Shown here: positions 54,878 to 58,574 of the stretch, one piece after another
Layout of the letters: each line of letters starts with the position of its first letter
Position numbering within the stretch: position 1 is the stretch's first letter
Source of the DNA: Chloroflexota bacterium
GTDB lineage: Bacteria; Chloroflexota; UBA11872
Length of the DNA: 64,000 bases
Assembly (NCBI GenBank): GCA_022825895.1
Contig: JAJDVX010000003.1
Location: 1 to 64,000, forward strand
Direction: 5' to 3'
The notes under the pieces: model-generated
Told to the model about the DNA's origin: nothing
Database searches by the model: none
The model's input: only the letters and a program-made list of their open reading frames with translations
Translations under genes and position numbers: made by a program

Positions 54878-55678
54878 GTGAGGCAGCGGGGAACCGAACC
54901 GGACGACGCGGGCGGCGTCTACGACAATCTGGAGCTTCCCAGCGGCGCGTGGCGTCCCTACACCGCGATCCAGATGGTGATGACGGTCGACGGGGCGATC
55001 ACGGGGCCAACCGACGACTACTGGCCGATCAGCCTGGACGCGGACCAGCGCACATTCCGCAGGTTTCGCATCCATTTCGACGCGGTGCTGCATGGAGCGC
55101 GCACGCTGGGGATGCGGATCGACCGGTACATGTGGAGCGAGGAGCTGCAGCGGGAACGGCGGCGGCGAGGTTTGCGTGAGCCGCCACTTTTCGTTGTGGT
55201 GTCGAACTCCGGGCAGATCGACCCGAAGGATCGAGTATTTCAGCGCCGCAGCTATCCGACGGCGCCGCTGGCGGTGGTGCCCGAGGTTGCCGAAGTCACG
55301 AAAGGTCTATCGGAGGTGGCGGAGATCGTCAGGATCGGCAACGAGCGCGTCTGTCTTGAGGACCTCGTGCGCTACCTGGCGGCCGAACGGGGTGTTCGGC
55401 GGCTGGTCTGTGAAGGCGGAGCAATCCTGAATTACCACATGCTGACGGCCGGGCTGGTAGACGAGTTCTTCATCACGGTGACGCCTTCGATCATTGGTGA
55501 GCCGAGGCCGCGCACGGCCGTGGAGGGTCCGGCGGCGCTGCCCAGCGATCAACTGCAACAGTTGGAGTTGGTTAGCACCGCCACGCACGGGGGCGAGGTA
55601 TTCCTTCGCTACGGCGTGCGCGGTGTACGTCCGCTCGCGCAGGCGGGCACGGGAGGGCCGGAATCGGCCGTTCGCTAA
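54878..55678 (+). CDS. RibD C-terminal-domain reductase
   Basis: A 266-residue protein of the dihydrofolate-reductase-like RibD C-terminal family. It starts with PYTAIQMVMTVDGAITGP, a strand-loop that binds NADPH, and contains LVCEGGAILNYHMLTAGLVDEFFITVTP, the usual second half. Without the deaminase domain it is unlikely to be the main riboflavin enzyme and may reduce another pterin- or flavin-like substrate. It follows the regulator stop by one base. Confidence 0.85.
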   Translation: MRQRGTEPDDAGGVYDNLELPSGAWRPYTAIQMVMTVDGAITGPTDDYWPISLDADQRTFRRFRIHFDAVLHGARTLGMRIDRYMWSEELQRERRRRGLREPPLFVVVSNSGQIDPKDRVFQRRSYPTAPLAVVPEVAEVTKGLSEVAEIVRIGNERVCLEDLVRYLAAERGVRRLVCEGGAILNYHMLTAGLVDEFFITVTPSIIGEPRPRTAVEGPAALPSDQLQQLELVSTATHGGEVFLRYGVRGVRPLAQAGTGGPESAVR

Positions 55679-55709
55679 CGTCAGGTCACCTGACGCGAGG
55701 TAGGCGCAT

Positions 55710-56126
55710 GTGTGCCGCCAGCGTGGGTGGGCCGTGTCGAGTCCAACATCACCCATTTCGGAGAACCTGGTGAGACCACGAGGGATCGACTTCTTCGTCT
55801 ACAACGTCAGCGATATCGCCAGGAGCGCGGACTTCTACGAGAACACGTTGGGTTTGACACTCAGGTCCCGGGAAGGTCCCGGCTGGGTCGAGTTCGCGGT
55901 CGGCGACACGCCGACGGTGCCGGCGCTTCGGCCGGATCCGGAAGGCGCCGGTGCGGCCGTTCAGGGCGGCGCCATTGCCATTGCCGTGGACGACGTCGGG
56001 CAGGCCGTTGACAAACTTCGCCACCACGAGGTGGACATCCTCTTTGGGCCCGGCGCACAGGCTTCGTGCTACACGGCCGGGACTTCCGATTCCGACGGCC
56101 ACCTGCTCCTGCTTCATAGCCGCTAG
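55710..56126 (+). CDS. VOC-superfamily protein
   Basis: A glyoxalase-like protein. The conserved part begins GIDFFVYNVSDIARSADFYENTLGL and ends with SDSDGHLLLLHSR, both typical of one VOC module. The ATG at 55710 has GAGGTAGG upstream; a GTG at 55770 with GGAGAA gives a 118-residue product closer to the family length. The metal ligands are partly visible. The substrate is unknown. Confidence 0.82.
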   Translation: MCRQRGWAVSSPTSPISENLVRPRGIDFFVYNVSDIARSADFYENTLGLTLRSREGPGWVEFAVGDTPTVPALRPDPEGAGAAVQGGAIAIAVDDVGQAVDKLRHHEVDILFGPGAQASCYTAGTSDSDGHLLLLHSR

Positions 56127-56344
56127 GACGGGACAGCCGGCTAAAGCCAAGGCTGCGAACCGACTGCGGAGCACCCACGTAGCGATCAGGAGCAACGCGC
56201 TCGGGAGTGAGGGGCTTTGGCCGGCGGACCGGGTGGTAGGTCACCTAGATCCAATCACTCCCACGCAGGCGCTGGTGGATCGCAGGTCTCCATGCCCTAC
56301 TGGGACATCAAAATGACCCACTAGCCACCTCCCCCGACCACTGC

Positions 56345-56373
56345 TTGACAGTCATGGTCATGATCTGGACGAT
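56345..56373 (+). promoter_or_regulatory. Promoter of the DUF3800 gene
   Basis: TTGACA (56345-56350) and GACGAT (56368-56373) are separated by 17 bp. The -10 box differs by one base from that of the NYN gene promoter. Confidence 0.6.
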
Positions 56374-56379
56374 TGTGGT

Positions 56380-56490
56380 GGCTGGCAGGACTGCTCGGGT
56401 ACCGAAGGTCCGCAGGGCTTACGCCCAGCCGGCTGCATTCTGGAGATCTTTTGTCGGCCTATGGGCGGCCCGGTGGGTCGCCCTTTTTTT
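56380..56490 (+). ncRNA. Structured leader RNA upstream of the DUF3800 gene
   Basis: A three-way junction is possible: GGCT (56380-56383) with AGCC (56427-56430) closes it; GGAC (56388-56391) pairs with GTCC (56408-56411) around an inner TCGG/CCGA; and GGGC (56415-56418) pairs with GCCC (56423-56426). A terminator ends the leader. Conserved RNA motifs upstream of DUF3800 genes have been described, and this may be one of them or a relative. Confidence 0.55.
56463..56490 (+). terminator. Intrinsic terminator 22 nt before the DUF3800 start codon
   Basis: GGGCGGCCC (56463-56471) pairs with GGGTCGCCC (56475-56483) including one G-U, with loop GGT, followed by seven Ts. AGAAGG and the ATG at 56513 come right after. 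Confidence 0.85.
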
Positions 56491-56512
56491 GTTGTTGGCA
56501 GAAGGCATTTTC

Positions 56513-57301
56513 ATGCACCTGTTGTATCTGGACGAGGCCGGCACGCATCCAGGCACGAATCATGTGGTGGTGGGCGGTCTTGCGATTTTCGAGCGCAGCG
56601 CGTACTGGCTTAAGCAAGATCTCGATTCGCTGGTACAGCGTTTCTTTCCGGAAACCTATGCCTCTGTCGAATTGCACGCGTCACCGCTTCGCGTCAGGAA
56701 CGGTCAGCGCGCTCGGCCGCCGTATGACCAACTCACCGGGTCAGAGCGCCGTGAGTTGCTGACAGCCGCATATACGGCACTTCGCGACTCGCCACATCCC
56801 GTTCTCTTCGCCACGGTGGTGGACCGGGTGCACGTCTCTTCCCGTGACCCCTATGAGGTCGCGTTCGAAGACGTGATTAGCCGCTTTGATCTGATGCTGA
56901 GTCGCCGTCACCAGCTAGGAGACACACAGCGCGGCCTCGTGATCGTTGCGGAGTCGAACTATCGTGAGCGCCTGGAAACGCTGGGCGACCGGATCCTACG
57001 CGACGGCACGCAGTGGAGTCGTACCCGCAACCTTGCCGACGTTCCGCTCTTCACCCGTGCTGCACGAACGCGGTTGCTGCAGGCAGCCGACTTGGTAACA
57101 GACGCAACGTGGGGGAGCTATGAGAAAGGGCTGGCATGGGACTTCAACACAATCCTGCGGAAGTTCGATCGCGAGGATGATCGACTTCACGGTCTAACTC
57201 ACATCAGCGCGAGTGCGGCGCAGTGCATGTGTCACGCTTGCTATTCCTGGCGACTCCACCGAACTTCGCCTGAGGGTGAAACCTCAGGATTGGAGCCGTA
57301 G
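56513..57301 (+). CDS. DUF3800 protein (RNase H-like fold)
   Basis: A 262-residue DUF3800 protein. The first acidic motif is MHLLYLDEAGTH, and the last block is LLQAADLVTDATWGSYEKG, both hallmarks of the family, which has an RNase H-like core and is common in phage-related and defence-type contexts. Catalysis is unproven. AGAAGG precedes the ATG by 7 nt. Third-position GC is below that of neighbours, suggesting transfer. Expression appears gated by the leader and terminator upstream. Confidence 0.85.
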   Translation: MHLLYLDEAGTHPGTNHVVVGGLAIFERSAYWLKQDLDSLVQRFFPETYASVELHASPLRVRNGQRARPPYDQLTGSERRELLTAAYTALRDSPHPVLFATVVDRVHVSSRDPYEVAFEDVISRFDLMLSRRHQLGDTQRGLVIVAESNYRERLETLGDRILRDGTQWSRTRNLADVPLFTRAARTRLLQAADLVTDATWGSYEKGLAWDFNTILRKFDREDDRLHGLTHISASAAQCMCHACYSWRLHRTSPEGETSGLEP

Positions 57302-57545
57302 GTTCCTGCCGCACCGCGCCAACCGAATCCATCCCCCAAGGCTCGCGGCGTTGCCCTCGGGGCACGTGCAACTCATCTACCGGTGCCGCACGCCGTTTCC
57401 GGCAACGCGAAGGGACTTTGGCCGTCCGCCGGACAAAATGCTCGCAGGGCTCAATCCGCCAGGGGATTGGGGGCACGTGGCCGACGTTTCGACCGCAGGC
57501 TCGACTACCATGCGCGGAACGCCAGCGTGTGAGGGGGATTTTGAC

Positions 57546-58574
57546 ATGGCCACCGTCGCATTGATTACCGAGGAGGGCGCCGCCCACCAGCAGCCGTACC
57601 GCGACGCGATTCGCGACCTCGACCTGATCGAGCGGGCAGAGTTGATGGATCCGGGCGGGATGACGTTTGGCGACTCCGTCGCGACTGTTGGGGACAAGGC
57701 GGGCGGCACGCACACGACGATGGATTCGCTGCTGGCGGCCGGGAAGCCGGACATGGCGATAGTGACCATGATCGCGGCACATGCCCCGGACGTAATCCGG
57801 CCGTTGCTGGAAGCAGGAGTGCACGTGATGGCCGAGAAGCCGGCCTGCGTGAACGTGGGGCAGTTCGAAGAGCTGGCTGGGCTGGCCGACGCGAACGGCG
57901 CGCACCTGATGTTGGCGTTGGCCAACCGCATCAGCCCCAGCGTCGCGGACGCTCGCCGCATCATCCAGGGCGACGGCATTGGCGACCTGTACGCGGTACG
58001 CGCGGTGCAGGTGGACGACCAAACGCGCATCCAGCGGCGGCTTGGCGATCCCGACTGGACGTTTCAAAAGAAGCTGGCCGGCGGCGGGCACCTGAGCTGG
58101 CTGGGCATCCACCGCCTGGACATGTTGAGCTACCTGGTGGGTGAGGACATCGCCGAGGTGACGGCCATGACGGCAGTTGCGGGCGGCGCGCCGATTGACG
58201 TGGAGGACTTTGGCATCGTGACGTTCAAGTTTGCCGGTGGTTCGCTGGGGGTGCTGTTCAGCGGCTACCTGATGGACCAGAAGGGACACAACGGCTTTAC
58301 GGTGTACGGCTCCGAGGGCTGGGTGCGGGCGCATGAGGGCGAGGCGGACGCGCTGGAGTGGCGTTCGATCTCGCCGGCCATGGTGGGCTCCAACGACCGA
58401 CGCTTTGAGTACGACGGCCGCGGCGGGGGCTACACCCCGTGGGTCGAATGCACGGTGCGCGCCTGCCTGGGCGAGATCGATCCGCCGATCACCGCCGAGG
58501 ACGGCCTGAAGGTGCTGCGGGTCGTGCATGCCGCGTACGAGTCGTCGGCGTCGGGTCGCCGCGTGGTGCTGTAG
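57546..58574 (+). CDS. Gfo/Idh/MocA-family oxidoreductase
   Basis: A 342-residue NAD(P)-dependent dehydrogenase. The cofactor-contacting block HVMAEKPACVNVGQFEELA holds the conserved lysine, and the substrate-domain block is AGGGHLSWLGIHRLDMLSYL. The N-terminus deviates from the usual GxGxxG (ALITEEGAAHQQPYRD), so the cofactor site may be altered. GAGGGGGA precedes the ATG at 57546. It is distantly related to the enzymes at 8915 and 58859. Confidence 0.87.
   Translation: MATVALITEEGAAHQQPYRDAIRDLDLIERAELMDPGGMTFGDSVATVGDKAGGTHTTMDSLLAAGKPDMAIVTMIAAHAPDVIRPLLEAGVHVMAEKPACVNVGQFEELAGLADANGAHLMLALANRISPSVADARRIIQGDGIGDLYAVRAVQVDDQTRIQRRLGDPDWTFQKKLAGGGHLSWLGIHRLDMLSYLVGEDIAEVTAMTAVAGGAPIDVEDFGIVTFKFAGGSLGVLFSGYLMDQKGHNGFTVYGSEGWVRAHEGEADALEWRSISPAMVGSNDRRFEYDGRGGGYTPWVECTVRACLGEIDPPITAEDGLKVLRVVHAAYESSASGRRVVL

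Follow-up and report, generated by a model that had tools for sequence, protein, structure and literature searches.

A three-way-junction RNA and a transcription stop in the leader of a Chloroflexota DUF3800 gene, and their recurrence in related leaders

RNA motifs of DUF3800 genes were reportedly the subject of a 2017 study by Weinberg et al. In literature that mentions DUF3800, as far as the parts covered here extend and with the motif-naming paper excluded, we found no tested function for these RNAs; the protein is called an RNase H-fold nuclease in the relevant parts of PMC10910872 and PMC12669027. Two described arrangements resemble the one reported here. According to the parts of PMC12373285 that treat them, the AbiF/RCd22 system of Clostridioides difficile runs promoter, noncoding RNA, terminator and toxin gene, with an RNA that neutralises the toxin both in cis and in trans, and in type III modules the RNA is kept in excess by a terminator that separates it from the toxin gene.

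The window analysed here, the whole stretch of 64,000 nucleotides, carries a DUF3800 locus arranged like AbiF/RCd22, in which a structured RNA and then an intrinsic terminator stand between a single promoter and a protein gene reached by read-through (PMC12373285, in part). It differs in having one junction where RCd22 has two abiF motifs and a protein with a predicted RNase HII-like fold where AbiF belongs to the Abi_2/AbiD/F family; moreover, neutralisation, demonstrated for AbiF/RCd22, is here a proposal. The promoter, RNA, terminator and protein gene order is also that of the type III toxin-antitoxin systems (ToxIN, AbiQ, CptNI, TenpNI), but the locus (L002) has a single junction without tandem repeats, and by Pfam and PADLOC its protein is DUF3800 only, an unrelated family, and not of the ToxN/AbiQ type. 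Its features are as follows.

56345-56350, + strand: -35 hexamer TTGACA, read from the sequence
56368-56373, + strand: weak -10 hexamer GACGAT, 17 nt from the -35; the two hexamers score 9/12 in all
56345..56373, + strand: promoter (TTGACA-17-GACGAT), from the sequence, hexamer-pair shuffles and comparison with relative G016
56379..56435, + strand: three-way junction RNA, predicted 5' end, from the RF02915 match, fold and pair counts
56379-56386/56428-56435, + strand: P1, helix of the junction
56388-56392/56407-56411, + strand: P2, helix of the junction, with a 14-nt loop
56415-56418/56423-56426, + strand: P3, helix of the junction, with a UUAC loop
56436..56462, + strand: linker between junction and terminator hairpin, from the fold
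56463..56490, + strand: intrinsic terminator, a 9-bp hairpin (56463-56483) followed by T7 (56484-56490)
56500..56505, + strand: Shine-Dalgarno AGAAGG, from the sequence
56513..57301, + strand: DUF3800 gene, 262 aa, predicted RNase HII-like fold, from Pfam (PF12686), AlphaFold2 and Foldseek

Promoter, junction and Rfam assignment

An earlier sequence-only reading had described a clear promoter, a leader able to fold into a three-way junction, and a 9-bp terminator with seven Ts followed 22 nt later by the start codon. The terminator scan and the sequence agree with the last of these: the hairpin has 9 pairs, 8 of them G-C, a loop of 3 and an energy of -17.6 kcal/mol, and the ATG at 56513 lies 22 nt past the T-run and 77 nt past the junction. 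TTGACA, a 17-nt spacer and GACGAT are indeed present, but "clear" is somewhat strong for a promoter with a weak -10, and a sigma-70 scan of 55500-58000 listed no site. Nonetheless, the highest-scoring pair of hexamers ends 5 nt upstream of P1 and was equalled by 1 of 300 shuffles, and both hexamers are kept in G016 although the spacer differs there. A promoter-like pair whose -10 ends 5–9 nt before P1 was found by hexamer search in 21 of 22 leaders of the set described below, a range set in part by the search itself, which sought the -10 at 2–14 nt from P1; three of the 21 (Paraburkholderia D15, Citrobacter and E. coli) were reached by more than 5% of shuffles. Since the -10 sits so close to P1 in nearly all of them, the junction should be the 5' end of the transcript. 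The DUF3800 reading frame is open across the whole leader (56345-57301, 318 codons), and an automatic caller may place the start of the gene too early.

Folded up to the start codon, the leader does form the proposed junction, together with the terminator in one minimum-energy structure with P(P1)=0.96, and the junction is also what the 5' part prefers when folded by itself. For a leader that ends directly behind the T-run, the computation favours another long helix (z -2.4; 2 of 200 shuffles fold as well). The linker (56441-56458) can also pair with 56494-56504 and 56507-56513 in the present leader and in that of relative G010, hiding the Shine-Dalgarno sequence (z -2.3, with 8 of 200 shuffles as good, in the present leader and z -1.1 in G010); we treat this stem as a local feature of these two genomes, because the pairing differs in G016.

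The nearest Rfam family is DUF3800-VI (RF02915), which the junction matches over the full model (1-52/52) at 28.4 bits (E 6.3e-4 when 351 bases are searched), under the gathering score of 35; a search of the 64-kb window at gathering scores gave no RNA. The covariance search that had been suggested as a check returned a full-length match, but one that falls short of Rfam's own threshold. In 7.1 kb that included the genome's other DUF3800 locus, RF02915 at E up to 0.5 matched the present junction (E 0.013) and nothing else, so that the other locus is without a match. A family search of 41 genomes of the class, whose first pass was lossy, gave no match in the present genome despite the copy there. 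The three-way junction plan, the full-length match and the position directly 5' of a DUF3800 gene are those of DUF3800-VI; the copy differs in its score and its longer P2 loop (14 nt). It is a divergent copy nearest to that family, in line with the suggestion that it might be a new variant of the DUF3800-associated motifs. The RF02915 model comprises 52 positions, the junction only, and the terminator found here lies outside it; the RNA type is already known, and the stop signal that is usual in relatives goes beyond the Rfam model.

Recurrence of the junction and of the stop

Two close relatives lie on contigs titled Chloroflexi. By protein search, 9 of the 41 genomes of the class have the DUF3800 gene, and their leaders, when read, all contain the junction (the present genome, G010, G016, G006, G012, G018, G004, G002 and G037); identity to the present protein is 93% in G010 and 89% in G016. 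Covariance model R1, built from the same Chloroflexota leaders that it then found, places the junction at 8 of the 21 DUF3800 loci of the class, plus the interrupted copy of G004. Given the Chloroflexota relatives at E up to 2, RF02915 listed G010 alone (26.8 bits) and left G016, G004, G006, G018, G037 and G002 unlisted.

More distant DUF3800 homologues matched 47 plasmid and 2 phage records, 13 of which were examined (29.6–35.8% identity). Seven of the 13 reach the RF02915 gathering score, two fall below it, and four enterobacterial ones are unlisted, yet their leaders still fold as junctions; of three further IMG/VR leaders, L082 reaches gathering (44.3 bits) and L084 and L085 are unlisted. 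The RF02915-unlisted leaders are joined to the others by fold, place and the models of this analysis and not by Rfam. Model R3, made from the proteobacterial and phage copies alone and run unfiltered, gave 17 rows for the 7 loci supplied; the best six fell on the junctions of six of these loci, with the present one last (11.2 bits, E 0.31, versus 11.0 bits for the best other row) and that of G002 missed. With filters on, the narrow models R2 and R3 did not find the present junction, R3 giving no hit either in its own locus or at this place in the window; nor did R2 find it without filters. A pattern scan of viral contigs gave five stretches, three of them on contigs already known to carry DUF3800; the remaining two lie within other sequence and were taken as chance. 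A second pattern gave none, and searching these contigs with the present DUF3800 protein and with protein alignment A2 confirmed no relative.

In a hand alignment of 22 junctions (20 distinct), made by eye for this structure and hence leaning towards it, pairing is canonical in 333 of 339 pair cells, and both sides have changed at 15 of the 17 pairs. Because many of the leaders come from close kin (among them four Rhizobiaceae and three enterobacterial ones), these counts are not independent events. Klebsiella was omitted from the alignment (its junction is that of Citrobacter); L076 (leader identical to L075), G012 (identical to G006) and L081, L083, L086, L087 and L088 (contig or sequence shared with L068 or L082) were dropped before counting, and L089 was left out of the leader set. 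The counts indicate that the junction is under selection, and compensatory changes, whose absence from homologous leaders the sequence-only reading had named as grounds for giving it up, are plentiful.

To score terminators we required, in the 117 nt before the start codon, a stem of at least 6 pairs, at least 4 of them G-C, and at least 5 T in 8. Such a hairpin terminator precedes the start codon in 16 of 23 DUF3800 leaders: 14 of the 15 from Proteobacteria plasmids and phage contigs versus 2 of the 8 from Chloroflexota (the present one and, weakly, G010). Between 2 and 33 of 200 shuffles per leader also match this loose rule, the present leader being the one with 33; for this reason a terminator in one leader says little by itself, and the strength of the evidence lies in the comparison with relatives. 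The hairpin is kept in G010 and G016, with a T-run that is weakened in the former and lost in the latter, and G002 likewise has a hairpin without a T-run. Of the seven leaders outside this rule, five (G004, G006, G018, G037 and IMGVR_3300021060) carry a U-rich tract, with 6 or more T in 8, no further than 3 nt past P1; 4% of positions in these leaders are as rich in T. Altogether, 21 of 23 leaders thus place a hairpin terminator or a U-rich tract between the RNA and the start codon; as a control, 3 of 13 readable DUF3800 genes without the junction (14 tried) match the terminator rule, each with 4 or 5 G-C pairs. The sequence-only reading had missed that a transcription stop is mostly kept between RNA and gene in relatives; comparison of the leaders establishes both the layout and its recurrence. 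In L084 (IMGVR_UViG_3300021060_000007) CC and then T8 come after P1, as though the junction doubled as the terminator.

The DUF3800 protein and a similar RNA before ATPase genes

Pfam assigns the protein to PF12686 (DUF3800; 2.3e-11, 45 bits) and to no other family. The AlphaFold2 model used has a pLDDT of 78.6 (the other four, 36–59), and rows 1–33 of its Foldseek search are RNase HII, HIII or H2 or complexes containing one, with a best E of 4.2e-3, no match at E <= 1e-3, and TM by query length of 0.30–0.43 in the first ten rows; the best PDB sequence match (E 0.053) is to another protein. Residues 7–10 read DE-x-G, which we take to resemble the RNase HII active-site motif. An RNase HII-like fold is tentatively predicted from the consistent top Foldseek rows; the E values, none better than 4.2e-3, and the TM values set the protein apart from RNase HII/H2. 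PADLOC gave zero matches to it. A C-x-C-x2-C motif near the C terminus (238–243 in the present protein) is found in 8 of 8 aligned Chloroflexota DUF3800 proteins and was not seen in 5 aligned plasmid and phage ones.

Run over the class, R1 marked 18 places, of which 9 precede DUF3800 genes, 5 precede AAA_15 ATPase genes and 2 have no gene recognised after them on the strand (L113, G016:C9:3704-3754; L114, G004:C3:269764-269815). The DUF3800 places give no independent support, eight being R1's own rows and the ninth (G012) being identical to G006; the remaining two places (E 0.004–0.005) were taken as chance. DUF3800 genes are thus not the only ones that such RNAs precede, a point that the sequence-only reading had also missed. 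The ATPases (528–545 aa, 56–64% identity to the first) are those of the present genome (G000, contig C2), G001, G004, G005 and G010, and in 4 of these 5 genomes a 157-aa gene comes next; the one 157-aa protein tested had no Pfam match. The second junction RNA of the present genome lies at G000:C2:116526-116576 (L103; L108) and scores 59.3 bits with R1. Of 116 PADLOC families that match the ATPase, PD-T4-4_A ranks first (5.5e-32), which may reflect the ATPase class only.

Over the span from the -10 box to CACGTTCTTT, the ATPase leaders are near-identical to those of DUF3800 in G004, G006 and G018; the flanks on either side differ. RF02915 left the four ATPase loci given (L109–L112) unlisted, and their kinship with the present junction rests on R1 and the shared plan. 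Three genomes have both genes: the present one and G010 with different leader subtypes, and G004 with one subtype and an interrupted DUF3800 gene. Such a subtype split fits RNAs that must not cross-talk, in numbers that are tiny.

Possible modes of action and mobility

Our preferred reading, held tentatively, is that the RNA is made in excess over the message of the RNase HII-like protein and also binds that protein. The promoter would yield an RNA whose first nucleotides fold as the three-way junction, the intrinsic terminator would stop most transcripts at about 110 nt, and rare read-through transcripts would carry the DUF3800 message, leaving the short RNA in excess of the nuclease-like protein. 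Most likely the RNA would then restrain the protein doubly, with termination acting in cis and binding in trans, as RCd22 does with AbiF and as antitoxin RNAs do in type III systems. Transcript start, efficient termination and the nuclease fold are here predictions, and the binding we infer from the layout and from precedent. We counted for this reading the promoter, junction, terminator and DUF3800 order, the terminators in 16 of 23 leaders and the U-tracts in 5 of 7 others, the promoter-like pair close to P1 in 21 of 22 leaders, the selected junction, the RNase H2-like fold and the missing antiterminator (below). Against it count the single junction where type III systems have repeats, the hairpin terminator in only 2 of 8 Chloroflexota leaders, the T-run lost in G016 and lacking in G002, the lack of Foldseek matches at E <= 1e-3, and the closely similar RNA before ATPases in five genomes, which an antitoxin specific to DUF3800 does not predict.

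The ATPase leaders speak for another reading, possible but more doubtful, in which junction and stop form a portable cis gate: several unrelated defence-type genes would be kept almost silent until some shared event, such as infection or an altered RNA polymerase, raises read-through, and the RNA would not act on the protein. Near-identical leaders before DUF3800 genes (G004, G006 and G018) and before ATPase genes (five genomes), set in unlike sequence, would be expected of such a gate, and the ATPase's PD-T4-4_A match would suit a defence role. However, the DUF3800 protein has no PADLOC match and that of the ATPase may reflect its class, the candidate trigger is only hypothetical, and the present genome and G010 pair the two genes with different RNA subtypes, which a shared trigger would not need. 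Restraint by excess RNA and portability could be combined: promoter, 5'-terminal junction and stop would be a portable module fitted before unrelated defence-type genes (the RNase HII-like DUF3800 protein; the AAA_15 ATPase with its 157-aa partner), excess RNA would restrain the encoded protein, and subtypes would keep two modules in a cell apart. As a joint reading we regard this as rather unlikely. The recurrent stop between RNA and gene turns the DUF3800 motifs into a testable RNA-protein module, and the RNA before the ATPase offers a second, independent gene with which a gene-specific antitoxin could be separated from a general gate.

A riboswitch or ligand-gated attenuator, in which the junction binds a small molecule and chooses between terminator and antiterminator, appears improbable. 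A compact three-way junction ahead of a terminator, Rfam's typing of DUF3800-VI as Cis-reg, and the different best fold of the leader that ends after the T-run would suit it. However, upstream pairing of the terminator arm was above chance in none of 16 leaders, judged against shuffled leaders or permuted arms. In all 16 leaders, blocking the 5' arm cost less than it did after shuffling, a result flattered by the shuffling, which also destroys the junction; with the upstream sequence kept and the arm permuted, pairing was weaker than the mean in 11 of 16, the strongest was matched by 44 of 200 permutations, and none was in the top 5%. Antiterminator pairing is thus at chance, with no switch visible, which argues weakly against a riboswitch; a ligand- or trigger-driven switch between two exclusive folds is so far not supported. 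The P3 loops, moreover, are exchangeable among leaders (UUAC/UCAC, UUCG/CUCG, GUAA, GAUU), and the downstream genes are nuclease-like or ATPases. Least probable is an element at the 5' end that would shield the message or help elongation, for which the 5' stem-loop and put-type antitermination RNAs are models. The position of P1, which in 21 of 22 leaders coincides with the predicted start of the transcript, would suit it, but the terminator would then have to be incidental, and terminators or U-rich tracts shared by 21 of 23 leaders do not look so.

The locus lies in a stretch whose presence varies between genomes.

56202..57498, no strand: variable stretch, in the present genome and G010, from comparison with G001, G005 and G004

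In G001 and G005 the site is nearly empty (about 50 and 39 bp, respectively), and G004 carries a different sequence there. In G016 the gene is located elsewhere; its BLAST likeness to the present locus spans window positions 56367-57261, with TTGACA at an equal distance by eye, so promoter, RNA and gene seem to travel together. The site itself (L036) lies between two ordinary genes and is a possible insertion hot spot. On two Rhizobiaceae plasmids, an ar15 sRNA (112.6 and 116.8 bits; L078 573-682 and L080 571-680) lies ~115 nt upstream of the DUF3800-VI RNA.
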